Shown: positions 43,161-62,918 of the stretch, piece by piece
Layout of the letters: every line of letters starts with the position of its first letter
Position numbering within the stretch: position 1 is the first letter of the stretch
Source of the DNA: Burkholderiaceae bacterium
GTDB taxonomy: Bacteria; Pseudomonadota; Gammaproteobacteria; Burkholderiales; Burkholderiaceae_C
Direction: 5' to 3'
DNA: 64,000 nucleotides
Assembly (NCBI GenBank): GCA_026125795.1
Contig: JAHCKM010000001.1
Location: 1,674,001 to 1,738,000 of the forward strand
The notes under the pieces: model-generated
What the model was told of the DNA's origin: nothing
What the model saw: the letters and a program-made list of their open reading frames with translations, nothing else
Database searches by the model: none
Made by a program: the position numbers and the translations under genes

Positions 43161-43277
43161 GGCGCGCCGCTCGATTATCGGCGTGGCCCGATTCGGTGTT
43201 TCCCCTCGTGCCATCGACAGCCGATTGACAGGCGCGCCTTGCACCATGGGCGCACTCGATCTTTCCGGAGGTGCCTC

Positions 43278-44937: not shown

Positions 44938-46134
44938 TCAGTGCGCTCCTCGTACCACCGGAACCTCCTGCGCCGGTGGCGTGTTGCGGCTGCGGCCGCA
45001 GCGCACGATGCCGTCGATCATCACCATGCCCACGCCGGGTATGTCGCCGAGCTGCACGCTGTCCAGCAGCGTGCGGCCGGCGCTGTGCTGCGCGCGGTCC
45101 ATGAACACGAAGTCGGCATCGCGGCCCGGCTCGATCAGTCCGCAGTTGAGTTTGCGCAGTCGCGCGGTGTTGCCGGTGGCAAAGCAGAACACCAGCTCGG
45201 CCGGGATCTGCGCCAGGCTCGACAGCAGGGCGATCAGGCGCAGGATGCCGAGCGGCTGCACGCCGGAGCCGGCCGGCCCGTCGGTGCCCAGGATCACGCG
45301 GTGCGGGCATTTGAGCTGCAGGGCGGCCTTGGCCGCCGCGATCGCGACGCGCTCGTTGCCGTTGTGCACGATCTCGATCGCCCGCGCACTCTTCTCGCAC
45401 AGCTCGCACACGTGCGCCTCGGGCAACGAGGTGTGGCCGCCGTTGATGTGGCCGATGACGTCGGCATCGGCCTCGAGCACGACATCCTTGTCGATCAGGC
45501 CGGAACCAGGGATGCTCGGGCCGCCGGTGTGGATCGTGCTCTGGATGCCGTGCTTGCGCGCCCAGGCCACCATCTGACGCGCCTCGGCACCGGCCTTGAC
45601 AGAACCGAGGCCCACCTCGCCGAGCAGCGTGACGCCGGCAGCGGCCAACTCGGCGAAGTCGCTCTCGACCATGCCTTTTTCGATCACCGGCGCGCCGGCC
45701 AGCACCTTGACACCGGCGGGCCGGAAGTTGTGAAACGCGCGCTGCGCGGTGATGGCCAGCGCCTTCAGCCCGACGATGTCCTTGGGCCGGCCCGGCAGGT
45801 GCACCTCGCCGGCCGAAATCATCGTCGTGACGCCGCCGTTCATCGTGCTGTCGATCCAGTTGAGCTGGCTCTGGCGCGGCGTCCAGTCGCCGAACACCGG
45901 ATGCACGTGGCTGTCGATCAGGCCGGGCGCGACGCAGGTCTTCTTGCAGTCGATCTCGGTGCGCGGGTTGTCGATGTCGCAATCCTTCTCGCGGCCCACC
46001 GCGGTGATGACGCCGTTGTCCACCACGATGGTGTCGGCGTCGAGAATGGGCCGGTCGATGTCGCCCGACAGCATCAAGCCGACGTTGCGGACCACGACCT
46101 TGCCCGAATTGCCGGCGGCGGCAACGTCTGCCAT
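44938..46134 (-). CDS. ena: enamidase (amidohydrolase of nicotinate ring cleavage)
   Basis: This 398-residue amidohydrolase has the metal motif DSHVHPVFG (His76, His78), QSTIHTGGPSIPGSG, VIGHINGGHTSLPEA and ILGTDGPAGSGV, and is close in length to the enamidase of Eubacterium barkeri. That enzyme opens the ring of 1,4,5,6-tetrahydro-6-oxonicotinate to give 2-formylglutarate and ammonia. Here it follows tetR by 16 bp and fpr upstream, and faces the hnr operon, which would make its substrate. The assignment rests on family resemblance and context together. Confidence 0.82.
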   Translation of the reverse strand: MADVAAAGNSGKVVVRNVGLMLSGDIDRPILDADTIVVDNGVITAVGREKDCDIDNPRTEIDCKKTCVAPGLIDSHVHPVFGDWTPRQSQLNWIDSTMNGGVTTMISAGEVHLPGRPKDIVGLKALAITAQRAFHNFRPAGVKVLAGAPVIEKGMVESDFAELAAAGVTLLGEVGLGSVKAGAEARQMVAWARKHGIQSTIHTGGPSIPGSGLIDKDVVLEADADVIGHINGGHTSLPEAHVCELCEKSARAIEIVHNGNERVAIAAAKAALQLKCPHRVILGTDGPAGSGVQPLGILRLIALLSSLAQIPAELVFCFATGNTARLRKLNCGLIEPGRDADFVFMDRAQHSAGRTLLDSVQLGDIPGVGMVMIDGIVRCGRSRNTPPAQEVPVVRGAH

Positions 46135-46150
46135 GCGGTGCTCCTTGTTT

Positions 46151-46840
46151 TCAGCGCGCCGCGCTCACCTTGCGCAGCACGGCATCGATCATGAACGCTT
46201 CCCAGTGCGCCAGCGCGGCCGGTGTGTCGAGGCTCTCGCCGAGAAACGCCGACAGCGTATAGCGGTTGGACAGGTAGAAGTAGCCCATCGCCGCGATCAT
46301 CAGGTAGACGTCGCGCGCCGACAGGTCGCTGCGAAACAGCTTCTGCTTGACGCCGGCGGCCAGCACGCGCGCCGTCACGCCGATCACCGGCGAGGACAGC
46401 TCGCTCGCGCGCAGGCTCTTGCCGATGTGGCGGCCACGGTGCAGGTTCTCGGTGTTGAGCAGCGTGATGAACTCGGGATTGGCCTGGTAGTAGCCCCAGA
46501 CGAAACGGATCACGTCGGCCAGCGCCTGCGCCGGCTTGGCCTCGTCGAGCTCGAGCGCGGTCTCGGCGTCGTTGAAGCGCCGGTAGGCCTCCTCGATCAC
46601 CGCGATGAACAGGCCTTCCTTGCTGCCGAAGTAGTAATAGATCATGCGGTCGTACGAGCGCGCAGCCTTGGAGATCTGCTCCACGCGGCCGCCTTCGTAG
46701 CCGTGCTTGGCGAACACCTTGGTGGCCGCGCGCAGGATGCTTTCGCGCGTGGCCTGCGCCGCGAGCTGGCGCACGCCGGGCTGGGGCGCGGCGCGGCCCG
46801 CCTGGCGGCGCGCGGCGGTGCGACGCGTCGGGGCGGCCAC
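46151..46840 (-). CDS. TetR-family regulator of the nicotinate cluster
   Basis: This 229-residue protein has a TetR helix-turn-helix (AQATRESILRAATKVFAKHGYEGGRVEQISKAARSYDRMIYYYFGSKEGLF, in parts, about residues 30-80) and a C-terminal ligand domain with ANPEFITLLNTENLHRGRHI. The GTG start lies 4 bp after the fpr stop. It is sandwiched between fpr and ena, so it is the local regulator; the inverted repeat at 47702-47717 is its probable operator. A nicotinate pathway intermediate is the likely ligand. Confidence 0.85.
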   Translation of the reverse strand: MAAPTRRTAARRQAGRAAPQPGVRQLAAQATRESILRAATKVFAKHGYEGGRVEQISKAARSYDRMIYYYFGSKEGLFIAVIEEAYRRFNDAETALELDEAKPAQALADVIRFVWGYYQANPEFITLLNTENLHRGRHIGKSLRASELSSPVIGVTARVLAAGVKQKLFRSDLSARDVYLMIAAMGYFYLSNRYTLSAFLGESLDTPAALAHWEAFMIDAVLRKVSAAR

Positions 46841-46844
46841 GGCG

Positions 46845-47618
46845 CTATTGCTCTGCGAACGCACGCTCCACCACGAACTGGCCGGGCGTCGTGGTGTTGC
46901 CCTCATGGAAGCCGCGCGACTCGAGCACGCGCTTCAGGTCGCGCAGCATCGCCGGGCTGCCGCAGATCATCACGCGATCCTCGCCCGGGTCGAGCGGCGG
47001 CAGGTCGAGGTCGGCGAACAGCTTGCCCGATTCGATCAGCTCGGTGATGCGGCCCATGTTGCGATAGGGCTCGCGCGTCACCGTGGGGTAGTAACGCAAC
47101 TGCTGCCGCACCATGTCGCCGAGGAACTCGTGCTGCGGCAGGTGCTCCACCAGCAGGTCATGGTAGGCCAGCTCGTCGACCTCGCGCACGCCGTGCACCA
47201 GCACGATCTGCTCAAAGCGCTCGTAGGTGGCCGGGTCGCGCACGATGCTCATGAAGGGCGCCAGGCCGGTGCCGGTTGACATCAGGTACAGACGCCTGCC
47301 CGGCAGCAGGTAGTCGATCAGCAGCGTGCCGGTGGGCTTGCGGCCGACCACGACCGGATCGCCCGGGCGCACGTGCTGCAGGCGCGACGTGAGCGGCCCG
47401 TTTGGCACCTTGATGCTGAGGAACTCCAGGTGATCCTCGTGGTTGGGGCTGACGATCGAGTAGGCGCGCAGCAGCGGCTTGCCGTCCACCTTGAGGCCGA
47501 TCATCGTGAAGTGCCCGTTGGAGAAGCGCAGGCCGGCGTCGCGCGTGGTGGTGAAGGTGAACAGGCGGTCGGTCCAGTGATGCACCGAAAGCACGCGTTC
47601 CTCGTTGAATGCACTCAT
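46845..47618 (-). CDS. fpr: ferredoxin-NADP reductase
   Basis: This 257-residue flavoprotein has the FAD motif LLRAYSIVSPN, LSIKVPNGPLTSRLQHVRPGD and the NADP motif LMSTGTGLAPFMSIVRDP, with the C-terminal CGSPAMLRDLKRVLESRGF. It is the first gene of the operon with tetR and ena and is divergent from the 6-hydroxynicotinate reductase gene. The known 6-hydroxynicotinate reductase takes electrons from reduced ferredoxin, so this Fpr is the obvious NADPH-linked electron source. A dedicated ferredoxin gene is not seen in the window. Confidence 0.9.
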   Translation of the reverse strand: MSAFNEERVLSVHHWTDRLFTFTTTRDAGLRFSNGHFTMIGLKVDGKPLLRAYSIVSPNHEDHLEFLSIKVPNGPLTSRLQHVRPGDPVVVGRKPTGTLLIDYLLPGRRLYLMSTGTGLAPFMSIVRDPATYERFEQIVLVHGVREVDELAYHDLLVEHLPQHEFLGDMVRQQLRYYPTVTREPYRNMGRITELIESGKLFADLDLPPLDPGEDRVMICGSPAMLRDLKRVLESRGFHEGNTTTPGQFVVERAFAEQ

Positions 47619-47701
47619 CGGGTGAGCCTGGTGCCCGCTCGCGGGGCTGGGGTCAACGCGCGTTGCAGGCGCCGCGCGCATGCGCTAGAGTCGGTCGCCA
47701 G

Positions 47702-47739
47702 TGTAGCAGCGGCTACATGAAAGTTAAGTATCCGCTACA
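47702..47739. promoter_or_regulatory. candidate TetR operator between the nicotinate operons
   Basis: TGTAGC-AGCG-GCTACA (47702-47717) is a perfect inverted repeat, and a further GCTACA half-site begins at 47734, exactly 22 bp (two helical turns) after the second arm. The sites sit in the divergent region of fpr and hnr, the natural target of the TetR protein. Confidence 0.6.
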
Positions 47740-47814
47740 TCAAACATGCGATGGCGCAAGGCGTGAATCCGTGAGCGAACGCGAGCACACCAAGACCGAC
47801 GGCATCGGCGACCC

Positions 47815-47870
47815 CGCGCCGCTCGGCGCGGGTTCCGCCGTTTTCGCGCCGCTCGGCGCGGGTTCCGCCG
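47815..47870 (+). repeat. two tandem 26-bp hairpin repeats before hnr
   Basis: Two identical 26-bp words start at 47815 and 47845, a 30-bp period. Each opens with CGCGCCG-CT-CGGCGCG, a perfect hairpin. They lie between GTG 47771 and ATG 47927 in the hnr frame and, if translated, would encode APLGAGSA twice. Confidence 0.65.
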
Positions 47871-47926
47871 ACCTCGCGCTGCCGGCCGGTGCCGACCCGT
47901 GGCGCTCGCGGCCGCGCAGCGAGCGC

Positions 47927-49420
47927 ATGGCGTCCAACAAGATCGAGTGCAACGCGTGCCCGGTGCTGTGCCAGATCAGCGACGGCAAGGTCGGCGCGTG
48001 CGACCGCTACGCCAACTCGGCGGGCGTGCTCGTGCGGGTGGATCCGGTGCTGCTGGTGCGCAAGGCCGTGGCGGTCGGCCAGGGCGTCGAAGACGGCGCG
48101 CTGGTGCCGTTTGTCGCCGCGGGCGCGCAGCCGGCGGCCGACCCATCCGAGCCGGTCTTCGTCACCGCGGTCGGCGCATCGACCACGTATCCGGACTACA
48201 AGCCCGCGCCGTTCATCGTGGCCACGCAGGCGCAGGGCGTCGACATGGTGACCGTGGTCACCGAGGGCATCTTCAGCTACTGCAGCATGAAGGTGAAGAT
48301 CGACACCGACCGCTGGCTCGGCCCCGAGCAGGCCAACGTGCGCTGCTCGGGCGAGGTGGTGGGTCACGTCACCACCGCCGAGTACGGCTCGCAGATGCTG
48401 TCGCTCGGCGGCGTGCACCACATCACCGGCGGCAGCAAGAAGGAAGGCCGCGTCACCGTCGATATGATGCACGCGCTCGGCAACAAGCAGCCGGTGGAGC
48501 TGGCCATCGATGGCGGCAGCGCGGTGCGCGTGCAGGCCGGCCGGCCGCCGGTGGTCGACGGCGTCGAGGAGCGCCGCATGCGCGTGGGCTGCGGCTCGGC
48601 CACCATCGGCATCTTCGCGCAGCAGTTCAAGGACGTGGTCGACGAGGTGGTGGTGGTCGACGACCACATCACCGGCGTGCTCACCGAGCACCAGGCCGGC
48701 CGCTGCCTCGACATGCGCCCGGCGGGCCTGAAGGTGCGCGGCCGCAAGTCGACGCCGGGGCGTTATTTCCAGGTGGCCAACCCCGGCACCGGCTGGGGCG
48801 GCACCGACATCGCCGACCCGATGACCATCGTCGAGAGCTGGGACCGCGATCTCGCATGGCCGGGCTTGCGGCTGCTGATGGTCAGCACCACCGGCGAGCA
48901 CGCGCAGTACTTCGTGCTCGACGGCCAGCGCGTGCCGCAGCCGATGCCGATGCCGCCCGAGGTGCAGCGCGTGGTGGAGCGCATCGGCGAGAACTGCGAG
49001 CCGTCGGTGGCCACCGTGCTGTTCGTCGGCGGCGCCGGCGGCAGCCTGCGTGCCGGCGTCACCGAGAACCCGGTGCAGCTCACGCGCGCGATCAAACGCG
49101 CGCTGGTCAACGTCACCTGCGGCGGCGCGCCGGCCTATGTGTGGCCCGGCGGCGGCATCACGGTGATGGTGGACGTGGCGCGCATGCCGGACCACAGCTT
49201 CGGCACCGTGCCCACACCGGCCATCGTGGCGCCGATCGAGTTCACGATGCGCCTGTCCGATTACCGCGAGCTGGGCGGCCACATGCGTTTCGTGCGGCCG
49301 CTGAGCGAGGTGCTGGCCACCGGCGCCTGGCACCACGACGGCGCGCCGACGGCGCGTCGATTCGTGGCGGCCCTGCCGGACAACCCGTGGCCGATCGGCC
49401 ACGGCCCGTTGCTGGGATGA
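47927..49420 (+). CDS. hnr: 6-hydroxynicotinate reductase-like FeS flavoprotein
   Basis: This 497-residue protein opens with C-x2-C-x3-C-x9-C (CNACPVLCQISDGKVGAC), expected to bind a 4Fe-4S cluster, followed by FVTAVGASTTYPDYKPAPFI, GGVHHITGGSKKEGRVTVDMM (in parts) and TCGGAPAYVWPGGGITVMVD. I assign it as 6-hydroxynicotinate reductase by resemblance and because enamidase, nicotinate dehydrogenase and fpr surround it. It would reduce 6-hydroxynicotinate to 1,4,5,6-tetrahydro-6-oxonicotinate. The frame is open to GTG 47771, which would add 52 residues including a tandem repeat; ATG 47927 is preferred because similarity begins there. The next gene overlaps its stop by 4 bp. Confidence 0.75.
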   Translation: MASNKIECNACPVLCQISDGKVGACDRYANSAGVLVRVDPVLLVRKAVAVGQGVEDGALVPFVAAGAQPAADPSEPVFVTAVGASTTYPDYKPAPFIVATQAQGVDMVTVVTEGIFSYCSMKVKIDTDRWLGPEQANVRCSGEVVGHVTTAEYGSQMLSLGGVHHITGGSKKEGRVTVDMMHALGNKQPVELAIDGGSAVRVQAGRPPVVDGVEERRMRVGCGSATIGIFAQQFKDVVDEVVVVDDHITGVLTEHQAGRCLDMRPAGLKVRGRKSTPGRYFQVANPGTGWGGTDIADPMTIVESWDRDLAWPGLRLLMVSTTGEHAQYFVLDGQRVPQPMPMPPEVQRVVERIGENCEPSVATVLFVGGAGGSLRAGVTENPVQLTRAIKRALVNVTCGGAPAYVWPGGGITVMVDVARMPDHSFGTVPTPAIVAPIEFTMRLSDYRELGGHMRFVRPLSEVLATGAWHHDGAPTARRFVAALPDNPWPIGHGPLLG

Positions 49421-50349
49421 GCCTGATGGCCGCACAACGCCAGGCTCTGCCGGATTCGCGTTGGCATTTCATGCACGGGCCGATCGACATCGTGATCGGC
49501 GCCGATGGCGAGGCCGATGCCGTGCAGGCGGCGCATGAAGCGGCCTGGCAACGCTTCGAGCCGCTGCTCGACGAGCTCGTCGCTGAACTGCCGTTGCTGC
49601 GCCAGCCGATCGTGGCGGAGCGGCCGTGCGCGCTCGCCGACGCCAATCCGTTGCGTGGCGTCGTCGCGCGCCGCATGTGGCAGGCGTGCGCGCCGTTCTC
49701 AGGGGACTTCATCACGCCGATGGCGGCGGTGGCGGGTTCGGTGGCGCAGGAGCTGATCGCCTGCTACCGGCGCCCCGGCGTGCGGCGCGCATGGGTCAAC
49801 AACGGCGGCGACATCGCGCTGCACCTGACGCCGGGTGAGCAGGTGCGCATCGGCCTGTTCGCCGACCTGGCGCGGCTCGACGCCACTCAAGTGCTGCGCG
49901 CCGCGCAAGACCGGCTCGCGCTCGACGGCACGCTGGTCGTGCGCGCCGAAGACGGCGTGCGCGGCGTGGCCACCAGCGGATGGCGCGGCCGCAGCTTTTC
50001 GCTCGGCATCGCCGACAGCGTGACCGTGCTGGCGCGCGAAGCGGCCGCCGCCGACGCGGCGGCGACGGTGGTGGCCAACGCGGTGAACGTGCACGCATCC
50101 GGCATCCGGCGCACGCCGGCCCATGCACTGCGCGACGACACCGACCTTGGCGCGCTTCCCGTCACGGTGGATGTGCCGACGCTGCCGGCCGCCGCGGTGA
50201 GCGAAGCGCTCGATCGGGGCCAGGCGTGTGCATTGGCGTTGCAGGCCCGCGGACTGGTGCTCGCCGCGGCGCTGCTGTGCCAGCGCCAGGCCCGTCTCGT
50301 GACGGCGCACACTACGGCGCTGGCGCCATCCTTGCTTGAGACCGCATGA
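49417..50349 (+). CDS. UPF0280 family protein, ApbE superfamily
   Basis: This 310-residue protein has the UPF0280 layout and ApbE-like elements: RAWVNNGGDIALHLTPGE (residues about 126-143), GVRGVATSGWRGRSFSLGIADSVTVLAR (in parts) and AADAAATVVANAVN, the counterparts of the GG-D, TSG and ADALAT motifs of FAD:protein FMN transferases. No signal peptide is seen, so it is cytoplasmic. UPF0280 has no established reaction. Being coupled to hnr, whose characterised relative carries covalent flavin, it may attach flavin to that protein. This is inference. Confidence 0.78.
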   Translation: MSLMAAQRQALPDSRWHFMHGPIDIVIGADGEADAVQAAHEAAWQRFEPLLDELVAELPLLRQPIVAERPCALADANPLRGVVARRMWQACAPFSGDFITPMAAVAGSVAQELIACYRRPGVRRAWVNNGGDIALHLTPGEQVRIGLFADLARLDATQVLRAAQDRLALDGTLVVRAEDGVRGVATSGWRGRSFSLGIADSVTVLAREAAAADAAATVVANAVNVHASGIRRTPAHALRDDTDLGALPVTVDVPTLPAAAVSEALDRGQACALALQARGLVLAAALLCQRQARLVTAHTTALAPSLLETA

Positions 50350-50981
50350 TGATCGAGATCCGACGCGTGCTCACCCAGGTGGAAGACATCTTCCACGAGT
50401 TCGGCCCGCCGCCGCCCCAGCCGCTGCGCCGCGGCGTGGTGGCCGCCGTGCTGCGCAACCCGTTTGCCGGTCGCTATGAGCCCGACATCGTGCCGATGAT
50501 GGAAGCGCTCAATCCGGTGGGCCTCGAGATGGCGCACAAGCTGCTAGCGGCGATGAACGCGCCGCCCGAGCGCATCCAAGGCTACGGCAAGGGCGCGATC
50601 GTCGGCTCGGCCGGCGAGCTCGAGCACGGTGCGTTGTGGCACGTGCCGGGCGGCTATGCGATGCGCGAGCTGCTCGGCTGGAAGGGCGACGCTGCGTCGT
50701 ACAAGCAGGGCGTGGCCACCGGCCAGAGCGGCAACGCGCTGGCGATCGTGCCGAGCACCAAGAAGGTCGGCCCGCCGGGCGCCGCGCTCGACGTGCCGCT
50801 GACGCACATCAACGCCAGCTACGTGCGCAGCCACTTCGATGCGGTGGAGGTGCACGTGCCGGGCGCGCCGCGCGCCGACGAGATCGTGCTGATCCTGACC
50901 ATGAGCACCGGCGCGCGCATCCATGCGCGCGTCGGCGGTCTGGCCGCATCGGCGATTCAAAAGTGGGACGGCCAACGCTGA
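50346..50981 (+). CDS. DUF1185 (amino acid synthesis family) protein, copy 1
   Basis: This 211-residue protein belongs to the family labelled amino acid synthesis (DUF1185): RRGVVAAVLRNPFAGRYEPDI, IQGYGKGAIVGSAGELEHGALWHVPGGYAMRELLG (in parts), ALAIVPSTKKVGPPGAALDVPLTHI and VRSHFDAVEVHV. The function is not known to me despite the label. It overlaps the UPF0280 stop by 4 bp and is followed by a paralogue, so both act in the nicotinate operon. Confidence 0.82.
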   Translation: MMIEIRRVLTQVEDIFHEFGPPPPQPLRRGVVAAVLRNPFAGRYEPDIVPMMEALNPVGLEMAHKLLAAMNAPPERIQGYGKGAIVGSAGELEHGALWHVPGGYAMRELLGWKGDAASYKQGVATGQSGNALAIVPSTKKVGPPGAALDVPLTHINASYVRSHFDAVEVHVPGAPRADEIVLILTMSTGARIHARVGGLAASAIQKWDGQR

Positions 50982-50998
50982 AAGACAAAGGACCGACG

Positions 50999-51583
50999 AT
51001 GCCCGCACAAATCCGCAAGCTCGTGGTGCAGGTCGACGAGACCCGCATCGAGATGGGACAGACCGTGAACCCGCCGACGCGCCGCGCGCTCGCGATGGCG
51101 GTGATTCACAACCCGTGCGCCGGCCGCTACGTGGAGAACCTCGACGAGCTGATCGCCATCGGCGAGGAACTCGGTGGCCTGCTCGGCAGCAAGTGCGTCG
51201 AGGCGCTCGGCATCCAGCCGGGCCAGGCGCACAGCTACGGCAAGGCCGCGATCGTCGGCGAAGCCGGCGAGCTGGAGCACGCGGCGGCGATCCTGCACCC
51301 CAAGCTCGGCGCGCCGTTGCGCAAGGCGGTTGAAAAAGGTGCCGCGCTGGTGCCGTCGGCCAAGAAGCAGGGCGGCCTGGGCACCGCGGTGGACGTGCCG
51401 CTCGGCCACAAGGATGCCGCGTTCGTGCGCAGCCATTTCGATGCCATCGAAGCGCGCGTCAGCGATGCGCCGCGCGCCAACGAGATCGTGGTTGCGGTCG
51501 CCGTCACCGCCAGCGGACGCCCGCTGGCGCGCGTGGGCGGCCTGCAGGTGAGCGAGATCCAGGGCCAGGACGGCCTGCGTTGA
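50999..51583 (+). CDS. DUF1185 (amino acid synthesis family) protein, copy 2
   Basis: This 194-residue paralogue of the preceding gene shares MAVIHNPCAGRYVENLDELI, HSYGKAAIVGEAGELEHAAAILHP (in parts), LVPSAKKQGGLGTAVDVPLGHKDAAFVRSHFDAIEARV (in parts) and a C-terminal RVGGLQVSEIQ. It lacks the roughly 12-residue middle insertion of copy 1. AAAGGA lies before ATG 50999. Two diverged copies in tandem suggest a heteromer or two successive steps. Confidence 0.82.
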   Translation: MPAQIRKLVVQVDETRIEMGQTVNPPTRRALAMAVIHNPCAGRYVENLDELIAIGEELGGLLGSKCVEALGIQPGQAHSYGKAAIVGEAGELEHAAAILHPKLGAPLRKAVEKGAALVPSAKKQGGLGTAVDVPLGHKDAAFVRSHFDAIEARVSDAPRANEIVVAVAVTASGRPLARVGGLQVSEIQGQDGLR

Positions 51584-51611
51584 TGTTGTTTTGACCAGGA
51601 GGGAACCTTCG

Positions 51612-52802
51612 ATGAAGCGAATCGTCACTGCGGCCCTGCTTGCGTTGTGCGCCACCGGCGCGGCGCTGGCGCAAGGGGTGATCAAGATCGGAGAGGTCAA
51701 CAGCTACAAGGTGCAGCCCGCCTTCCTCGAGCCGTACAAGAAGGGCATGGAGCTGGCGGTGGAGGAGATCAACGCCGCGGGCGGCGTCAACGGCAAGAAG
51801 CTGCAGCTGATCACGCGCGACGACAACGGCTCGCCGGGCGACGCGGTGCGCGCCGCCGAGGAGCTGGTCTCGCGCGAGCAGGTCGACGTGCTGGCCGGCG
51901 GCTTCCTGTCCAACATCGGTCTCGCGCTGACCGACTTCGCCAAGCAGCGCAAGTTCTTCTACCTGGCCAGCGAGCCGCTGACCGACAAGATCGTCTGGGG
52001 CAACGGCAACAAGTACACCTTCCGCCTGCGCCCGAGCACCTACATGCAAAGCGCGATGCTGGTGCCCGAGGCGGCCAAGCTCAAGAAGAAGCGCTGGGCC
52101 GTGGTCTACCCCAACTACGAGTACGGCCAATCGGCGGTGTCCACGTTCAAGGCGCTGCTCAAGGCGGCGCAGCCGGATGTGGAGTTCGTCGCCGAGCAGG
52201 CGCCGCCGCTCGGACGGCTCGATCCCGGCTCGGTGGTGCAGGCGCTGGCCGACGCCAAGCCCGATGCGATCTTCAACGTGCTGTTCGGCGCCGACCTCGC
52301 CAAGTTCGTGCGCGAGGGTAACACGCGCGGCCTGTTCCAGGGCCGCGAGGTGGTGAGCATGCTGACCGGCGAGCCCGAGTACCTCGACCCGCTGAAGGAC
52401 GAGACGCCCAACGGCTGGATCGTCACCGGCTATCCGTGGTACGGGGTGCAGACGCCCGAGCACAAGTCGTTCTTCATCGCGTACCACAAGAAGTACAACG
52501 ACTATCCGCGCCTGGGCTCTGTGGTGGGCTACAGCGCGATCTACTCGCTGGCCGCCGGCATCAAGAAGGCGAAGTCCACCGAGACCGAGAAGCTGGTCGC
52601 TGCGTTCCGCGGCCTCGAGCTGATGACGCCGTTCGGCAAGACGGTGTTCCGTCCGCAGGACCACCAGTCGACGATGGGCGCCTACGTCGGCAAGACCAAG
52701 AACGAGGGCGGCAAGGGCACGATGGTGGACTACGTGTACCTCGACGGCGCCAAGTTCCAGCCCAGCGATGCGGAGGTGAAGAAGCTGCGTCCCGCCGATT
52801 GA
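51612..52802 (+). CDS. branched-chain-type ABC transporter substrate-binding protein
   Basis: This 396-residue periplasmic protein has a signal peptide (MKRIVTAALLALCATGAALA) and a LivK/type I periplasmic fold: IKIGEVNSYKVQPAFLEPYKKGMELAVEEINAAGGVNGKKL (in parts), DDNGSPGDAVRAAEELVSRE and VVYPNYEYGQSAVSTFKALL. AGGAGGGA precedes ATG 51612. Family members bind amino acids, amides or aromatic acids. Its place in the operon points to nicotinate, nicotinamide or a hydroxylated derivative as ligand. Confidence 0.88.
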   Translation: MKRIVTAALLALCATGAALAQGVIKIGEVNSYKVQPAFLEPYKKGMELAVEEINAAGGVNGKKLQLITRDDNGSPGDAVRAAEELVSREQVDVLAGGFLSNIGLALTDFAKQRKFFYLASEPLTDKIVWGNGNKYTFRLRPSTYMQSAMLVPEAAKLKKKRWAVVYPNYEYGQSAVSTFKALLKAAQPDVEFVAEQAPPLGRLDPGSVVQALADAKPDAIFNVLFGADLAKFVREGNTRGLFQGREVVSMLTGEPEYLDPLKDETPNGWIVTGYPWYGVQTPEHKSFFIAYHKKYNDYPRLGSVVGYSAIYSLAAGIKKAKSTETEKLVAAFRGLELMTPFGKTVFRPQDHQSTMGAYVGKTKNEGGKGTMVDYVYLDGAKFQPSDAEVKKLRPAD

Positions 52803-52827
52803 TCTTGCAGACGGCACACCGGCGCCC

Positions 52828-55279: not shown

Positions 55280-56053
55280 ATGAGCCTGCTCAAGGTCACG
55301 CACCTCACCAAGTCCTTCGGCGGCAACCGCGCCGTCGACGACGTCTCGTTCGAGCTCGCCGCCGGCGAGCTGCTCGCGATGATCGGTCCCAACGGCGCCG
55401 GCAAGTCGACCACCTTCAACATGGTCAACGGCCAGCTCGCGCCCGATGGCGGCGCGATCACGTTGAACGGCACCGAGCTGGTTGGCAAGCGTCCGCGCGA
55501 GGTGTGGAAGCTCGGTGTCGGGCGCACCTTCCAGATTGCCGAGACCTTCGCGTCGCTGACGGTGGCCGAGAACGTGCAGATGGCCTTGTTGTCGCACGAT
55601 GCCAAGGTGTTCTCGTTCTGGCGCAAGGCCGCCGCGCACAAGCGCGACGAGGCGATGGCGCTGCTCGAGCAGGTGGGCATGGCGGCTCAGGCCGAGCGGC
55701 CGTGCAGCGTGCTGGCCTACGGCGACGTCAAGCGCGTGGAACTGGCGATCGCGCTGGCCAATGCGCCCAAGCTGCTGCTGATGGACGAGCCCACCGCCGG
55801 CATGGCGCCCAAGGAGCGCAACGACCTGATGGCGCTCACGCGCCAGCTGGTGCAGCAGCGCGGGCTTGCGGTGCTGTTCACCGAGCACAGCATGGACGTG
55901 GTGTTCGCCTACGCCGACCGCATTTTGGTACTGGCGCGCGGCAAGCTCATTGCACAAGGCGAGCCGGCACAGATCCGCGAGGACGCCAAGGTGCAGGAGG
56001 TGTACTTCGGCAGCGGCAAGACCTTCGAGAAGAAGTCGGCGGTCACGGCATGA
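55280..56053 (+). CDS. livG: branched-chain-type ABC transporter ATPase LivG
   Basis: This 257-residue ATPase has Walker A GPNGAGKSTTFN, the signature-bearing PCSVLAYGDVKRVELAIAL, Walker B LLLMDEPTAGMAPKE, the switch His in LFTEHSMDVVFAYADRI and the C-terminal VQEVYFGSG of LivG. It pairs with livF, whose start overlaps its stop. The signature reads LAYGDVKR where the typical LSGG sits, a known variation in this family. An upstream in-frame extension to 55028 is noncoding. Confidence 0.9.
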   Translation: MSLLKVTHLTKSFGGNRAVDDVSFELAAGELLAMIGPNGAGKSTTFNMVNGQLAPDGGAITLNGTELVGKRPREVWKLGVGRTFQIAETFASLTVAENVQMALLSHDAKVFSFWRKAAAHKRDEAMALLEQVGMAAQAERPCSVLAYGDVKRVELAIALANAPKLLLMDEPTAGMAPKERNDLMALTRQLVQQRGLAVLFTEHSMDVVFAYADRILVLARGKLIAQGEPAQIREDAKVQEVYFGSGKTFEKKSAVTA

Positions 56054-56790: not shown

Positions 56791-56824
56791 CCTCGTCCGA
56801 ACCGCCATGCCTCGAGGAGGGCTC

Positions 56825-57553
56825 ATGAACAGACAAGCCATGACCATGGACCGCCGCTTCTTCGTCGGCGGACTCTCGGCCGCCGCGCTGCTGGCGGCGC
56901 TGCCGGCGCGCGCCGCCAAGGTCAAGCCCGGCGCCGATGCCGCGCTGATCGTGGTGGACGTGCAGAACTGCTTCGTCACCGGCGGCACCTTGCCGGTGAA
57001 GGGCGGCGAGGAGGTGGTGCCGGTGATCAACAGAATAGCCGGCGGCTTCAGGAACATCGTCGTCACGCAGGACTGGCACACGCCGGGCCACGCGTCGTTT
57101 GCCAGCAGCCACTCGGGCAAGAAGCCGTTCGAGACCACCAAGCTGGCCTACGGCATGCAGGTGCTGTGGCCCGACCACTGCGTGCAGGGCAGCGACGACG
57201 CGGCGCTGCACAAAGACTTGAAGCTGCCGACCGCGCAGCTGGTGATCCGCAAGGGCTACAACAAGGGCGTGGACAGCTACTCGGCCTTCATGGAGGCCGA
57301 TGGCAAGACGGTCACGGGTCTGGCGGGCTACCTGAAGGCGCGCGGCATCAAGACCGTGTTTGTCACCGGGCTGGCCACCGACTTCTGCGTCAGCTGGACG
57401 GCGCAGGATGCGCGCAAGGCCGGCTTCAACGTCTACGTGATCGAAGACGCCACGCGTGCGATCGACTTGAACGGCTCGCTCGCCGCGGCCTGGAAGGCGA
57501 TGACGGCCAAGGGCGTCAAGCGCATCCAGTCGGGCGACATCGAGGTGGCTTGA
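56825..57553 (+). CDS. pncA: nicotinamidase with Tat signal peptide
   Basis: This 242-residue isochorismatase-fold enzyme has the nicotinamidase triad: Asp in ALIVVDVQNCF, Lys in LVIRKGYNKGVDSY, and Cys in VTGLATDFCVSWTAQDA, with the metal site in TQDWHTPGHASF. It hydrolyses nicotinamide to nicotinate. Unlike housekeeping PncA it begins with a twin-arginine signal (MDRRFFVGGLSAAALLAALP, ending ARA), so it should be folded in the cytoplasm and exported to the periplasm. GAGGAGGG precedes ATG 56825. It lies directly before nicAB, which would use its product. Confidence 0.88.
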   Translation: MNRQAMTMDRRFFVGGLSAAALLAALPARAAKVKPGADAALIVVDVQNCFVTGGTLPVKGGEEVVPVINRIAGGFRNIVVTQDWHTPGHASFASSHSGKKPFETTKLAYGMQVLWPDHCVQGSDDAALHKDLKLPTAQLVIRKGYNKGVDSYSAFMEADGKTVTGLAGYLKARGIKTVFVTGLATDFCVSWTAQDARKAGFNVYVIEDATRAIDLNGSLAAAWKAMTAKGVKRIQSGDIEVA

Positions 57554-57555
57554 AG

Positions 57556-58023
57556 TTGTCCACCCCGTTGACGCTCAAGGTCAACGGCCGCTCGCACGAG
57601 CTGGCTGCCGAGCCGCACGTGCCGCTGCTGCAGGTGCTGCGCAACGACCTGCAGCTCAACGGCCCCAAGTTCGGCTGCGGCCTCGGCGAATGCGGCGCCT
57701 GCACCGTGCTGCTCGACGGTGTGGCGGCGCGCGCATGCTGCACGCCGGTGGCCGGCGTCGGCGCACGCGAGGTCACCACGCTCGAGGGCCTGGCCGTCGA
57801 CGGCGCGCTGCACGCGGTGCAGCAGGCCTTCATCGACACGCAGGCCGCGCAGTGCGGTTATTGCCTCAACGGCATGGTGATGGGCACCGTGGCGCTGCTG
57901 CGGCGCATCGCGCAGCCCACCGAGGGCCAGGCGCGCGCCGCGCTGTCGCACAACCTGTGCCGCTGCGGTACCCACCTGGAAATCCTGGCGGCGGTGCAGC
58001 GCGCGGCCCAGCTGCTCAAGTGA
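57556..58023 (+). CDS. nicA: nicotinate dehydrogenase FeS subunit
   Basis: This 155-residue protein carries two 2Fe-2S clusters: the plant-ferredoxin-type site in KFGCGLGECGACTVLLDGVAARACC (in parts) and the second in QCGYCLNGMVMGTVALL with NLCRCGTH. It transfers electrons from the molybdenum site of NicB. TTG 57556 was chosen because GAGGTGG lies 8 bp upstream; TTG 57550 is the alternative. Its stop overlaps the nicB start. Confidence 0.92.
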   Translation: MSTPLTLKVNGRSHELAAEPHVPLLQVLRNDLQLNGPKFGCGLGECGACTVLLDGVAARACCTPVAGVGAREVTTLEGLAVDGALHAVQQAFIDTQAAQCGYCLNGMVMGTVALLRRIAQPTEGQARAALSHNLCRCGTHLEILAAVQRAAQLLK

Positions 58024-61000
58024 TGGCGCGCGCCGCTGGGCCCGTGGACGTGCAGCGGCCGCGGGCTGCTGCGTGGCACACGCGGCGCGAGTTCCGCGCG
58101 GCTGATGGCGTGCTGCTGGTGCTGCGCGATCCGCCGCCGCCCGTGGCGCCGGCGCCCGGCCAGCCGCCCACCGTGCCGGCCAATCCGGCCGAAGGCCCCG
58201 AGGTGCTGCTGGCGTTCGCCGACGACGGCCACGCAGTGGCGCTCGGCGGACACGTCGACCTCGGCACCGGGATCCAGACCGCGTATGCGCAGCTGGTGGC
58301 CGACGAGCTCGACCTGCCGCTCGATCGCGTCAGCGTGATCCTCGGCGACACGGCGCGCGCGCCGAACCAGGGCCCGACGATCGCCAGCACGTCGATCCAG
58401 ATCCACGCGCTGCCGTTGCGCCAGGCAGCGGCGCAGGCACGCGCATGGCTGCGCGAGGCCGCATCGCAGCAGCTCGGCGTGGCGGCCGACGCGCTGCGCC
58501 TGGAGGGCGGCGACGCCTGCGCGCCCGATGGGCGGCGCGTCGCGCTGGGCCAGCTGGTGGCCGGCCGGCACGTCGAGCTGATGCTCGATGCCGGCACGGC
58601 ACTCAAGACGCCGAGCGAGTACCGCATCATCGGCACGTCGGCCCCCCGCAAGGACATCCCGGCCAAGGTCGCGGGCGACGCGGTCTACGTGCACGACGTG
58701 CGCGTGCCCGGCATGCAACACGGACGCGTGGTGCGGCCGCCGTATGCCGGCATCGACGCCGGCGACTTCGTCGGCCGCACCTTGCTGGCGGTGGACGAAG
58801 CGTCGATCGCGCACATCGCCGGCGTGCGCCAGGTGGTGGTGATCGGCGACTTCGTCGGCATCGTCGCCGAGCGCGAAGACCAGGCCGAGGCCGCGATGCA
58901 CGCATTGCGCGTGTCGTGGAAGCCGTGGCCGGCGCTGCCGCCGCTCGATGACCTGGCGCAGGCGATCCGCGCCAACCCGGCCACGCCGCGCATCGTCGCC
59001 AGCCAGGGTGACGTCGACGCCGCGCGTGCGGCGAGCGCGACCGCGCTCGATCGCGAGTACGTCTGGCCGTACCAGATGCACGCGTCGATCGGGCCCTCTT
59101 GCGCGGTCGCCGACTGGCGGGGCCATTCGCTCACGGTCTGGGCCGGCACGCAGAATCCGCACGTCCTGCGCGCCGATCTGGCCAAACTCACCGGTCTGTC
59201 GGACACGGCGGTCGACGTGGTTCGCCTCGAGGCGAGCGGCTGCTACGGCCGCAACGGCGCCGACGACGTGGCAGCCGACGCCGCGCTGCTGTCGCGCGCG
59301 GTGGGCGCGCCGGTGCGCGTGCAGCTCACGCGCGAGCAGGAACACGCGTGGGAGCCCAAGGGCGCGGCGCAGCTGATGCGCGTGCGCGGCGGGCTCGATG
59401 CGTCGGGCAACCCCACCGCGTACGACTTCGACACCTCGTACCCGAGCAACGCGGCGCCCACGCTGGCGCTGCTGCTCACGCGCACCATCGAGCCGGTGGC
59501 GCGTGCCTTCGAGATGGGCGATCGCACCGCGGTGCCGCCGTATGCGTACGCCAACCAGCGCATCACGGTGAACGACATGGCGCCGCTGCTGCGCGCGTCG
59601 TGGCTGCGCGGCGTGTCGGCGCTGCCCAACTCGTTCGCGCATGAGAGCTACATCGACGAGCTGGCGCATGCGGCCGGCGTCGATCCGGTGGAGTACCGGC
59701 TGCGCCACCTGAAGGACGATCGTGCCGCCGAGCTGGTGCGCGCGGTGGCTGACAAGGCCGGCTGGCGTGTGCACTCGCAGCCGCAGCAGCAGGGCGCCGA
59801 TGGCGACTGGCTCAAGGGCCAGGGCTTTGCCTATGCGCGCTACGTGCACAGCAAGTTCCCCGGCTTCGGCGCCGCATGGGCGGCCTGGGTGGCCGACGTC
59901 GAGGTGCACCGTGTCACCGGCGACGTGCACGTGCGCCGTGTCGTGGTCGGGCAGGACGCCGGGTTGATGGTCAACCCGGACGGCGTGTTGCACCAGGTGC
60001 ACGGCAACGTGATCCAGACCACCAGCCGCGCACTGAAGGAGCGGGTCGGCGTCGACCCGCAGACGCGCGCCGTCACGGCGCAGGAGTGGGGCAGCTATCC
60101 GATCCTGAGCTTTCGCGACGTGCCGGTGGTCGAGGTGCTGCTGATGCCGCGCCCCGGCGAGCCGCCGCTCGGCGTGGGCGAGTCGTCGTCGGTGCCGGGC
60201 ACCGCGGCGATCGCCAACGCGATCTTCGATGCCACCGGCGTGCGCTTGCGGCAGCCGCCGTTCACGCCCGAGGTGGTGCGCGCTGCGATCAACCCGCTGC
60301 CCGCACCGCCCGCGCCGGCAGCGCCGCCGGCCGATGAAGTGCGCGAGCACGCGCAGGATCCGCAGCGCCGGCGCAAGGGCTTGCTGGCAACCGTGGGCGC
60401 GCTCGCCGCGGCCGGCATCGGTCTGCTGGGCGCCGCGCTGGGCTGGCGTCCGGCGATCGCGCCGGTGCAGCTCAGCGCGCCGCAGATCTACAGCGCCGAG
60501 CTGGTCGAGCGCGGCCGGCAGCTCGCCGCGCTCGGCAACTGCACGCATTGCCACAGCGCCGACGGCGGCGCGCCGCTGGCCGGTGGACGCGCCGTCGAGA
60601 CGCCGTTCGGCACCGTGGTGTCGACCAACATCACGCCCGATGCTGCAACCGGCATTGGCCGCTGGAGCTTCAGCGCCTTCCAGCGTGCGATGCGCGAGGG
60701 CATCGCGCGCGACGGGCGTCATCTGTACCCGGCCTTTCCATACCCGTCGTTCACGCAGGCGAGCGACGATGACCTGCAAGCGATCTATGCCTGGCTGATG
60801 GCGCAGCCGGCCGTCGTTCACGCGCCGCCGCCGGGTGAGCTGCGCTTTCCGTTCAACTGGCGTCCGCTGATGGCGCTGTGGAACGCGCTGCACCTGCAAA
60901 GCGGCCCGGTCGCGAACGTCGACGGGCGCAGCGCGCTGTGGAGCCGCGGCGCGTACCTGGTCAACGGCCTCGGCCACTGCGGCGCCTGCCACAGCGCGCG

Positions 61001-61652
61001 CGATGCGCTGGGCGCCGAGCGCAACCGCAGCGCCTACCTGGGCGGCGCGCTGCAACAAGGCTGGGAGGCGCCGGCTCTCGGCGCCTTGTCGCGCGCACCG
61101 GTGCCGTGGACCGAGGCGCAACTGATGCGCTACCTGCAGCGCGGCCACGATGCCTTGCACGGCATGGCCGGCGGCCCGATGGCGCCGGTGGTGCGCGGCC
61201 TCGCGCAGTTGCCGAGCGACGATGTGCGCGCGATCGCGCACTACCTGGTGTCGCTGCAACCCGATCGCACCGACGGCAGCGCCGAGACGCTGCTGGCGCG
61301 CAGCCGTGCGCAAGCCGCGCTGCTGCGCGGCCCGGCGCAGCGCCTGTTCGAAAGCGCCTGCGGCGCCTGCCACCACGATGGCGACGGCCCCGAGTTGGTC
61401 GGCCTGAACCAGCCGCTGGCATTGAACCCCAACCTGCACGGCACGCGGCCCGACAACCTGCTGCGCACCGTGCTCGACGGCATCCAGGATCCGGCGTTCA
61501 TCCACATCGGCCACATGCCGGCGTTTCGCCACGCGCTGAACGACGCGCAGATCGTCGAGCTGGCCGCATACATGCGGCAGCGCTTCGCGCCGGGCCAGCC
61601 GCCGTGGCCCGATCTCGCCGGTGCGGTGGTGCGGGCGCGTGCGCAACCCTGA
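58023..61652 (+). CDS. nicB: nicotinate dehydrogenase molybdenum/cytochrome c subunit
   Basis: This 1209-residue protein has an N-terminal xanthine-oxidase-type molybdopterin domain (about 1-770; GGHVDLGTGIQTAYAQLVADEL, ASGCYGRNGADDVAADAALL, PLGVGESSSVPGTAAIANAI, in parts), a membrane span after basic residues (RRRKGLLATVGALAAAGIGL, about 783-812), then three c-type heme sites at residues 840 (CTHCH), 986 (CGACH) and 1113 (CGACH). This is the NicB layout. It hydroxylates nicotinate to 6-hydroxynicotinate. The basic residues before the span predict a cytoplasmic molybdenum domain and periplasmic cytochromes feeding the respiratory chain. Confidence 0.93.
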   Translation: MARAAGPVDVQRPRAAAWHTRREFRAADGVLLVLRDPPPPVAPAPGQPPTVPANPAEGPEVLLAFADDGHAVALGGHVDLGTGIQTAYAQLVADELDLPLDRVSVILGDTARAPNQGPTIASTSIQIHALPLRQAAAQARAWLREAASQQLGVAADALRLEGGDACAPDGRRVALGQLVAGRHVELMLDAGTALKTPSEYRIIGTSAPRKDIPAKVAGDAVYVHDVRVPGMQHGRVVRPPYAGIDAGDFVGRTLLAVDEASIAHIAGVRQVVVIGDFVGIVAEREDQAEAAMHALRVSWKPWPALPPLDDLAQAIRANPATPRIVASQGDVDAARAASATALDREYVWPYQMHASIGPSCAVADWRGHSLTVWAGTQNPHVLRADLAKLTGLSDTAVDVVRLEASGCYGRNGADDVAADAALLSRAVGAPVRVQLTREQEHAWEPKGAAQLMRVRGGLDASGNPTAYDFDTSYPSNAAPTLALLLTRTIEPVARAFEMGDRTAVPPYAYANQRITVNDMAPLLRASWLRGVSALPNSFAHESYIDELAHAAGVDPVEYRLRHLKDDRAAELVRAVADKAGWRVHSQPQQQGADGDWLKGQGFAYARYVHSKFPGFGAAWAAWVADVEVHRVTGDVHVRRVVVGQDAGLMVNPDGVLHQVHGNVIQTTSRALKERVGVDPQTRAVTAQEWGSYPILSFRDVPVVEVLLMPRPGEPPLGVGESSSVPGTAAIANAIFDATGVRLRQPPFTPEVVRAAINPLPAPPAPAAPPADEVREHAQDPQRRRKGLLATVGALAAAGIGLLGAALGWRPAIAPVQLSAPQIYSAELVERGRQLAALGNCTHCHSADGGAPLAGGRAVETPFGTVVSTNITPDAATGIGRWSFSAFQRAMREGIARDGRHLYPAFPYPSFTQASDDDLQAIYAWLMAQPAVVHAPPPGELRFPFNWRPLMALWNALHLQSGPVANVDGRSALWSRGAYLVNGLGHCGACHSARDALGAERNRSAYLGGALQQGWEAPALGALSRAPVPWTEAQLMRYLQRGHDALHGMAGGPMAPVVRGLAQLPSDDVRAIAHYLVSLQPDRTDGSAETLLARSRAQAALLRGPAQRLFESACGACHHDGDGPELVGLNQPLALNPNLHGTRPDNLLRTVLDGIQDPAFIHIGHMPAFRHALNDAQIVELAAYMRQRFAPGQPPWPDLAGAVVRARAQP

Positions 61653-61706
61653 GCGCGCCGCCGTCCCGGTTGTGGTCTGATACGGGCCCCCGGGACCGGA
61701 GACCCC

Positions 61707-62918
61707 ATGCCAGCGCCTTTCAAGCCGGCGATCAGCACGCTGCTCGACACCGACCTGTACAAGTTCACCATGTGGCAGGTGATGCTGCACCACAACCCGG
61801 AAGCCACCGGGATGACGCAGTTCATCTGCCGCAACACGCCGCAGTATCCGCTGGCCGATCTGGCCGGTGAGGTGCGCGAGCAGCTCGAGCACCTGTGCAG
61901 CCTGCGCTTCACCGAGCACGACATCGGCCTGCTCGGCACGCGGGCCTACATCAAGAAAGACTTCCTCGAGTGGCTCGGCATCTTCCGCTTCCAGATGAAG
62001 TTCCTCGACATCACGGTGAACGGCGATGCGCTGAACATCGTCGCGCGCGGGCCGCTGGTGCACATCACCGCGTTCGAGATCTTCGTGCTGTCGATCGTCA
62101 ACGAGCTGTACTTCCGCCGCCTGACCACGCCGGCGGTGATGGCCGAAGGGCGGCGCCGCCTGGCGGCCAAGATCGAGCACCTGCGCTCGTTCATGGCCGA
62201 CCCTCAGCACCAGCGGCGCCACCCGTACGAGTTCTTCGACTTCGGCACGCGGCGGCGCTTCTCGCGCGAGTGGCACGACGAGGTGATCGCCACGCTCGCG
62301 CGCGAAGTGCCGCAGTGGTTTCGCGGCACCAGCAACGTCGAGCTGGCGTTCAAGCACGGCGTGGCGCCGATCGGCACGATGGCGCACGAGCACATGCAGA
62401 AGCACCAGGGCCTGGGCAACGTGCAGCTGCGCCGCTCGGTGCGTGCCGCGCTGGAGGAGTGGGTGCAGGAGTACCGCGGCGACCTCGGCATCGCGCTCAC
62501 CGACGTGATCACCACAGACGCCTTCCTGCGCGACTTTGACCTGTACTACACCAAGCTGTTTGACGGTGTGCGCCACGACTCGGGCGATCCCGACGCATGG
62601 GCGCACAAGGTGCTCGAGCACTACAAGCGGCTGCGCATCGATGCGCGCACCAAGCGGCTGGTGTTCTCCAACGCGCTCACGTTCGACGACTCGTTTCGCC
62701 TCTACCTGAACTGGGGCGACGCCGCGCAGCACGGCTCGGGCATCGGCACCTGGCTTTCGAACGACCTCGGACTGACGCCGCTCAACATCGTGATGAAGCT
62801 CAAGCAGGTGAACAACCAGCCGGTGGCCAAGATCTCCGACGATCCGAGCAAGGCGCTCGGCGAAGACCCGGTGTTCCTGGCGTACCTGAAGCAGGTGTTC
62901 GACGTGACGCCACGCTGA
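61707..62918 (+). CDS. pncB: nicotinate phosphoribosyltransferase
   Basis: This 403-residue enzyme makes nicotinate mononucleotide from nicotinate and PRPP. It starts ISTLLDTDLYKFTMWQVMLH and has FDFGTRRRFSREWHDEV, the phospho-histidine segment GTMAHEHMQKHQ, DVITTDAFLRDFDLYYTKLFDGVRHDSGDPDAWAHKV (in parts) and FSNALTFDDSFRLY. GGAG lies just before ATG 61707, and 7-bp arms GTCCCGG/CCGGGAC stand directly 5' of it. It ends the nicotinate operon, so the operon can direct nicotinate to NAD salvage as well as breakdown. Confidence 0.93.
   Translation: MPAPFKPAISTLLDTDLYKFTMWQVMLHHNPEATGMTQFICRNTPQYPLADLAGEVREQLEHLCSLRFTEHDIGLLGTRAYIKKDFLEWLGIFRFQMKFLDITVNGDALNIVARGPLVHITAFEIFVLSIVNELYFRRLTTPAVMAEGRRRLAAKIEHLRSFMADPQHQRRHPYEFFDFGTRRRFSREWHDEVIATLAREVPQWFRGTSNVELAFKHGVAPIGTMAHEHMQKHQGLGNVQLRRSVRAALEEWVQEYRGDLGIALTDVITTDAFLRDFDLYYTKLFDGVRHDSGDPDAWAHKVLEHYKRLRIDARTKRLVFSNALTFDDSFRLYLNWGDAAQHGSGIGTWLSNDLGLTPLNIVMKLKQVNNQPVAKISDDPSKALGEDPVFLAYLKQVFDVTPR

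Follow-up and report, generated by a model that had tools for sequence, protein, structure and literature searches.

A probable Azorhizobium-type nicotinate catabolic gene cluster in a betaproteobacterium, with a constant pairing of hnr and a UPF0280 gene

Introduction

A gene cluster for nicotinate catabolism by hydroxylation, reduction and ring opening has been described in Azorhizobium caulinodans (AZC_2804-2790) and in three other strains (Shettigar et al. 2012, PMC3511419, available part of the text). One of these, strain SG-6C, degrades nicotinate and 6-chloronicotinate via 6-hydroxynicotinate, and its cluster was assigned by BLAST in the same part of that paper (PMC3511419). Here we analyze a cluster of this type at positions 44938-62918 of a 64,000-nucleotide stretch of DNA (the window; contig positions 1674001-1738000) from a Burkholderiaceae bacterium whose genome comprises 6.57 Mb in six contigs. 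A preliminary description, made from the window alone, had presented the cluster as the genetic form of a hybrid oxidative-reductive route in a betaproteobacterium. The route fits, but this is not its first genetic form, because the clusters of A. caulinodans and the three other strains had already been reported in 2012 (PMC3511419, to the extent available), and the chief value of the locus itself is to record an established route in a further clade. What goes beyond the preliminary description is the strict pairing of hnr with a UPF0280 gene, a Tat-like signal peptide on PncA, a proposed operator, and a complementarity between ena and hyuB. The first three genes of the route are reportedly present in nine Proteobacteria, as Alhapel and co-workers are said to have noted in 2006.

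Results and Discussion

Gene content of the cluster

The interval holds two divergent operons, fpr-tetR-ena on the minus strand and hnr-UPF0280-DUF1185-DUF1185-ABC importer-pncA-nicA-nicB-pncB on the plus strand. Neighboring genes often overlap or almost abut (e.g., hnr ends at 49420 and UPF0280 starts at 49417). The gene list, order and orientation given in the preliminary description were all confirmed by Pfam and NCBIfam searches and by reading of the open reading frames (ORFs). The features are as follows.

44938..46134, minus strand: ena, predicted enamidase (1,4,5,6-tetrahydro-6-oxonicotinate (THON) hydrolase; PF01979; PDB 2VUN)
46151..46906, minus strand: TetR-family regulator (PF00440; PF17938, E=2e-40); start uncertain, overlaps the fpr ORF
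46845..47618, minus strand: fpr, ferredoxin/flavodoxin-NADP reductase, proposed electron supply of Hnr (PF00175, PF00970); start inferred at an internal ATG near 47618
47702..47717, no strand: TGTAGC-N4-GCTACA palindrome, proposed TetR operator; additional GCTACA half-site at 47734
47771..49420, plus strand: hnr, predicted 6-hydroxynicotinate reductase (identity to plasmid records); probable GTG start at 47771
49417..50349, plus strand: UPF0280/COG2122 family member with an ApbE-like fold, proposed as maturase of Hnr (NF003322, 382 bits)
50346..50981, plus strand: DUF1185/AA_synth copy 1 (PF06684, E=1.9e-68, 229.8 bits, cut-off 27; PDB 3BYQ, E=1.5e-50)
50999..51583, plus strand: DUF1185/AA_synth copy 2 (PF06684, E=3.4e-70, 235.5 bits, cut-off 27, scored on the longer ORF)
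51612..52802, plus strand: ABC importer periplasmic binding protein, urea/branched-chain type (PF13458, E=5e-72)
52828..54711, plus strand: ABC importer permease, a single 627-aa ORF (PF02653, two BPD_transp_2 stretches)
55280..56053, plus strand: ABC importer ATPase 1, start approximate (open frame; position matches the annotated ABC ATPase of a Comamonadaceae plasmid cluster)
56050..56790, plus strand: ABC importer ATPase 2, start approximate (PF00005, E=1e-29)
56825..57553, plus strand: pncA, nicotinamidase with Tat-like signal DRRFFVGGLSAAALLAALPARA (NF008623, 178.3 bits, cut-off 174)
57562..58023, plus strand: nicA, nicotinate dehydrogenase subunit with [2Fe-2S] domains, start approximate (PF01799, PF00111)
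58023..61652, plus strand: nicB, molybdopterin subunit with three cytochrome c domains (PF20256, PF02738, PF00034, PF13442)
61707..62918, plus strand: pncB, nicotinate phosphoribosyltransferase, salvage branch (PF04095; TIGR01514, 437 bits)

The gene families, their order, their conservation and the hnr-UPF0280 pairing are read directly from the genomes. By these features the locus is most likely a betaproteobacterial example of the Azorhizobium-type cluster for nicotinate catabolism, a judgment that applies to the pathway alone and not to the roles proposed below for UPF0280 and DUF1185. The original assignment of hydroxylation to NicAB, reduction to Hnr and ring opening to Ena fits all of the homology found. 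NicA carries [2Fe-2S] domains, and NicB carries MoCoBD and three cytochrome c stretches, as in a Mo/[2Fe-2S] nicotinate hydroxylase; we take this domain set to be of the Pseudomonas putida type. Hnr is 58-74% identical to 26 plasmid records, with 74% to the annotated Hnr of a Comamonadaceae plasmid and 58-64% to annotated alphaproteobacterial Hnr. The preliminary description had tied its reading to the nearest relatives of Hnr and Ena, and these do not contradict it, since Ena is nearest to the Eubacterium barkeri enamidase among solved structures, and 17 of the 26 plasmid relatives of Hnr are annotated as 6-hydroxynicotinate reductase (the remainder are hypothetical or unannotated).

Recurrence in related genomes

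Relatives of hnr are common, with at least 591 confirmed among GTDB species genomes, and we used the best 80 of these as a locus set, in which many loci are cut by contig ends. The named organisms in this set are presumably Burkholderiales. Most of the gene order recurs in the 80 loci, so the cluster is more than a chance association, and some loci are rearranged (L059, L075, and a Paraburkholderia type). Matches per 80 loci number 79 for UPF0280, 78 and 76 for the two DUF1185 copies, 69 for tetR, 67 for ena, 64 for nicA, 61 for fpr, 33 for pncA, and 1 for pncB, a gene too far along the operon for most of these loci to extend to it.

The Paraburkholderia-type clusters (n=12: L071, L086, L087, L089, L092, L093, L101-L103, L105, L106, L109) have ena within the hnr operon, with no match to fpr or to the binding protein; L089 belongs to the laboratory strain Paraburkholderia xenovorans LB400. 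A single DUF1185 gene, of the copy-2 type, is seen in L041, L048, L051, L058, L082 and L083 and in the f48-coded genomes. Two loci, from a Variovorax and an Acidovorax, have an extra gene between pncA and nicA (L077:19255-20526 and L054:13090-14274), which by eye encodes a second periplasmic binding protein. The cluster of the window is flanked by a two-component sensor/regulator pair (41071-43763) and an NnrS gene (63323-63961).

Hnr and its partner UPF0280

Co-occurrence was counted in a set of 398 Pseudomonadota genomes. Here hnr and UPF0280 are confined to the identical 32 genomes, where they lie side by side without exception across nine family codes. The 32 are what remains of 34 after two weak matches were dropped (G061 and G285; E-values of 6e-5 and 7e-4, incomplete matches of 24-30% identity that contain stops). 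They include G016, a one-contig genome in which hnr is in two overlapping pieces (G016:C1:2969823-2971264), probably by frameshift or sequencing error; matches with a single stop were likewise retained (ena in G322, hyuB in G194 and G197, UPF0280 in G386). UPF0280 also adjoins hnr in all 76 loci of the locus set that have room for it (4 of the 80 were excluded, with fewer than 1200 bases downstream), and does so in each of 31 further genomes.

Seven cysteines are invariant in both Hnr alignments (A1 and A2), four of which form an N-terminal CxxCxxxC-x9-C motif. Hnr has no Pfam match at cut-off and no NCBIfam match, and a Pfam scan at E<=10 gave no DUF39, no structure or profile comparison with COG1900/DUF39 having been made; kinship with that family would account for UPF0280 as a partner of both. 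The peptide EHTKTDG directly follows the GTG at 47771 and by eye recurs in the relatives (a narrow regular expression matched 3 of 80), so this GTG is most likely the start of hnr. Attempts to relate Hnr to a solved fold were unproductive: its AlphaFold model (pLDDT 71, pTM 0.66) gave no Foldseek match in the PDB at E<=0.001, and a profile search against solved structures gave a single chance-level match (E=2.2). The missing match does not show that the fold is new, the model being middling. ApbE-type flavinylation motifs have the form D-x-x-S/T-G-A-T. Inspection of A1 and A2 by eye found none of this form in Hnr, and the conserved TTYPDYKP and GCGSA segments do not fit it.

The UPF0280 protein passes its family profile (NF003322, 382 bits versus a cut-off of 290) and has an ApbE fold, retaining the GGD and ATSG motifs, while scoring below the gathering threshold of Pfam PF02424 (17 versus 25.6 bits). 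The HxxDPxTG segment of ApbE, with its conserved histidine, is absent from UPF0280 in the profile alignment of A3 and A4 (probability 92.7, E=4.4e-7); we take this histidine to be the catalytic one of ApbE (H257 in Vibrio cholerae). The UPF0280 alignment (A3) has no invariant cysteine, and C88 is near-invariant.

Proposed ring opening by enamidase or HyuAB

Ena matches the E. barkeri enamidase structure (PDB 2VUN) over residues 12-390 with E=3e-108 and 365.8 bits, and this is its sole strong relative in the PDB, the next best having E=3e-4. The aligned motifs are HVH (76), GEVGLG (172), IHTGG (201), GHINGG (228) and LGTDGP (282), whose HxH, Glu, His, His and Asp we assume to be the metal ligands.

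In two annotated plasmid loci, from Fuscovulum and Neorhizobium, genes for hydantoinase A/B accompany the hnr-UPF0280-DUF1185 core, and the stretch shown has no ena. Of the 32 genomes with hnr, 18 carry an ena ortholog (61-100% identity) and 16 a hyuB ortholog (65-82% identity; next paralogs <=45%), such that 16 genomes have ena only, 14 hyuB only, 2 both and none neither. The hyuB subfamily (E<=1e-170) is found in 16 of the 398 genomes, all of them hnr genomes, and in none of the 366 others; in no more than 7 of the 16 is it closer than 15 kb to hnr. The Fisher value for ena versus hyuB (5e-7) overstates the case, because the Hnr tree requires a minimum of two changes for hyuB and four for ena, and an independent-pairs test had two informative pairs of four (p 0.5). 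Caprolactamase-like HyuAB is seen at L182 and L183 and in genomes G386, G171, G274, G333, G055, G367, G194, G123, G071, G197, G051, G331, G277, G016, G167 and G139. Against the caprolactamase profiles HyuAB scores 482 bits (NF050156) and 309 bits (NF050157), both under the cut-off of 1000. The window has no HyuAB, and hyuB has no ortholog match in the window's genome.

Judged by this distribution, an ATP-dependent lactamase, HyuAB, may replace enamidase as the THON ring opener, although no more than about two independent exchanges are supported by the tree. Because THON is a six-membered lactam, and the ATP-dependent oxoprolinases OplA/OplB open delta-valerolactam (PMC11033972, available part), ATP-dependent opening of THON is chemically reasonable. 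If true, the exchange predicts an enzyme that spends ATP to hydrolyze a six-membered lactam that is stable. No paper in the literature collection searched combines hydroxynicotin- with hydantoinase.

Hydroxylase, reductase and importer

NicB has one hydrophobic segment, LATVGALAAAGIGLLGAAL, preceded by RRRK and separating the molybdopterin part from the cytochromes, and no clear N-terminal signal was seen. By the positive-inside rule, hydroxylation would take place in the cytoplasm and the cytochromes would be periplasmic. The hydroxylase next to hnr in the 32 genomes is NicAB in 14 (the window included) and of the XDH type, as a pair of genes, in 16; neither kind was seen in the fetched stretches of G207 and G167, although these are labeled NicAB and XDH, respectively, on the Hnr tree. 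In L188, L191, L201-L203 and L205-L215, an XDH-type FAD subunit and a fused Fe-S/Mo subunit precede hnr-UPF0280, and a pncA match is near in 9 of these 16. Fpr has FAD/NAD domains and scores 154 bits with NF008178, under the 390-bit cut-off. The importer is of the branched-chain-amino-acid/urea type, and consists of a binding protein, one permease ORF and two ATPases.

Probable export of PncA and proposed control of the operons

PncA starts at 56825 with MNRQAMTMDRRFFVGGLSAAALLAALPARA (signal region 56825-56914). Both PncA and PncB exceed their curated cut-offs, that of PncA being an equivalog score. Matches to pncA occur in 33 of the 80 loci (within L032-L111), two of which are unreadable; of the 31 others, 29 have a twin-arginine (RR) motif with a hydrophobic stretch after it, as judged by regular expression and eye only, and two lack the motif. 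Retention of this Tat-like signal on the relatives suggests that the nicotinamidase of the cluster is exported, so that deamidation is probably periplasmic. No exported nicotinamidase was found in a literature search judged by titles and abstract openings.

The spacer between fpr and hnr contains TGTAGCAGCGGCTACA at 47702-47717, and the window has no second exact match (about one match is expected by chance when two mismatches are allowed). The half-site is present in 60 of 60 fpr-hnr spacers, whereas 200 shuffles gave 16.1 on average and at most 25; because the genomes are related, the spacers are not independent of one another, and the shuffles keep base composition only. On this basis the palindrome is the proposed TetR operator for both operons.

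DUF1185 and the end of the route

DUF1185 is present in 31 of the 32 genomes with hnr, as compared with 28 of the 366 others. The 184 hnr-linked copies and 21 others retain a GE-EH motif and Arg positions, and in our reading of the alignments these correspond to Glu90, His93 and Arg176, which are highly conserved in the chorismate-mutase-like fold of the family (PMC2954203, available part). The family has been linked to TgnF of trigonelline breakdown, which is said to stimulate succinate semialdehyde dehydrogenase (SSADH) (PMC7913881, available part). Structures of the family have been solved, and the proposed place of DUF1185 after ring opening narrows the candidate substrates. In 20 DUF1185 loci away from hnr clusters, genes within 15 kb encode aldehyde dehydrogenase (14), alpha/beta hydrolase (9) and luciferase-like monooxygenase (8); these loci were hand-picked and are non-random, three are in hnr genomes (two in the window's genome and one in G123), the gene caller recovered DUF1185 in 16 of the 20, and each neighbor family was checked with Pfam on one representative. 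We take this set of neighbors to be trigonelline-like. The nicotinate and trigonelline routes share a 2-formyl-dicarboxylate intermediate from which CO2 has to be removed, and our guess is therefore that DUF1185 helps this step. More specifically, and as a rather speculative proposal, it might act on the ring-opening product, most likely helping 2-formylglutarate to decarboxylate or tautomerize to glutarate semialdehyde. In two hnr genomes, a DUF1185 pair away from the hnr cluster adjoins ena, which lies on the opposite strand.

The window's genome has two further DUF1185 genes, at C3:687223-687750 (L151) and C3:612920-613438 (L150), the former near genes for an aldehyde dehydrogenase, an SDR-like protein, a BNR-repeat-like protein and a ThDP-type enzyme. 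We looked for a decarboxylase or aldehyde dehydrogenase gene hidden inside the cluster and saw none. The preliminary description had noted that the steps after 2-formylglutarate are missing, and nothing completing the route was found within the cluster; elsewhere in the genome there is one SSADH over its curated cut-off, together with many other aldehyde dehydrogenase matches.

Proposed pathway and alternative readings

In the pathway that we propose, the individual activities, cellular sites and electron flow are predictions. Nicotinamide would be converted to nicotinate in the periplasm by Tat-exported PncA, and nicotinate would be taken up by the ABC importer and hydroxylated by NicAB at the membrane, with electrons passing to periplasmic cytochrome c. 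Hnr would then reduce 6-hydroxynicotinate to THON with electrons from NAD(P)H via Fpr, and Ena would hydrolyze THON to 2-formylglutarate and ammonia. Glutarate semialdehyde would be oxidized by a dehydrogenase encoded elsewhere, part of the nicotinate would be diverted to NAD by PncB, and both operons would be under control of TetR through the TGTAGC-N4-GCTACA operator.

Several points weigh against this scheme. The name of Hnr rests on annotated plasmid relatives and not on the E. barkeri Hnr sequence itself; pncA is inconstant, with no match in 30 of the 63 loci that have a nicA match; fpr has no match in any of the 12 Paraburkholderia-type clusters; and one hnr genome (G139) has no DUF1185. 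The glutarate end was not found, in that CsiD has no match in the genome, glutaryl-CoA dehydrogenase not having been searched for. The DUF1185 relative HcdD was without effect in its authors' hands (PMC7913881, available part). The cluster might instead serve another substituted pyridine, such as 6-chloronicotinate or another pyridine carboxylate, with nicotinate as one substrate among others. In SG-6C, 6-chloronicotinate enters the same route at 6-hydroxynicotinate (PMC3511419, available part), some related loci have a second binding-protein gene, and others have an XDH-type enzyme in place of NicAB, so the input of the route can vary. In this window, however, pncA and pncB in one operon point to nicotinamide and nicotinate, and we regard the other-pyridine reading as improbable.

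For UPF0280, we consider the chances about even that it is required to make active Hnr by maturing its flavin or its metal/sulfur center. A wider proposal, put forward tentatively and with less conviction, is that Hnr depends obligately on UPF0280, the two forming a pair of enzyme and maturase, that UPF0280/COG2122 is an ApbE relative which installs or repairs the redox center of ferredoxin-linked reductive enzymes without the ApbE histidine, and that the hydroxylase (NicAB/XDH) and ring opener (enamidase/HyuAB) have been swapped between lineages around this fixed core. To a sulfur-trafficking or Fe-S/persulfide factor, as opposed to a flavin transferase, we give much the same tentative weight. 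It would agree with the loss of the ApbE histidine segment and with the seven invariant cysteines of Hnr, but the fold of UPF0280 is clearly ApbE-like with GGD and ATSG kept, and no cysteine of its own is invariant. The E. barkeri Hnr is also said to contain covalently bound flavin along with Fe-S clusters (reportedly in the abstract of Alhapel and co-workers, 2006), and the flavin counts against a sulfur factor. In its favor, the archaeal homolog MA1715 has been termed a sulfur trafficking protein (PMC12068725, available part), and a persulfide idea for it is reported in the available part of PMC5764234. A passenger status of UPF0280 and DUF1185, structural or regulatory and with no catalytic or maturation role, would be in line with the DUF1185-free genome and with the merely proposed activities of the two proteins in this pathway, but the pairing of hnr with UPF0280 has no exception in the 398 genomes, and the GE-EH and Arg positions of DUF1185 are kept in hnr-linked and other copies alike; we think the passenger reading very unlikely. 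The pairing ties UPF0280/COG2122, which has a genetic role in hard-to-handle anaerobes, one-to-one to a single reductase in tractable aerobes, where its chemistry is testable.

Comparison with known systems

The P. putida nic cluster has in common with this locus a NicAB-type hydroxylase with cytochrome c domains, and differs in that its ring is oxygenated, whereas here the ring would be reduced and hydrolyzed. The preliminary description had reported the maleamate-route genes as absent, and nicC, nicX, nicD and nicF are indeed not among the genes of the cluster, the rest of the window and genome not having been searched. Nicotinate fermentation in E. barkeri shares Hnr and Ena (the latter by the direct comparison with 2VUN); the hydroxylase here is instead the cytochrome-linked NicAB, and the later fermentative genes are not in the cluster. 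The HyuAB of hnr genomes without ena, a feature of the relatives, belongs to the same family as caprolactamase CapAB and oxoprolinase OplAB. COG2122 of anaerobes (MA1715, DvMF_0044, and DVU1097 = PDB 2O34) acts in homocysteine synthesis with DUF39 and NIL/ferredoxin proteins (PMC5764234, available part), whereas its constant partner here is Hnr. The closest systems are the clusters of A. caulinodans ORS571, Bradyrhizobium japonicum, Rhodopseudomonas palustris HaA2 and SG-6C, which share with this one the first three steps, hnr, a putative nicotinate ABC transporter and two conserved proteins of unknown function (PMC3511419, available part). Compared with the descriptions of those four clusters, and not gene by gene, the present one is set apart by its betaproteobacterial host, its divergent ena-tetR-fpr operon, its doubled DUF1185 and the Tat-like signal peptide of its PncA.

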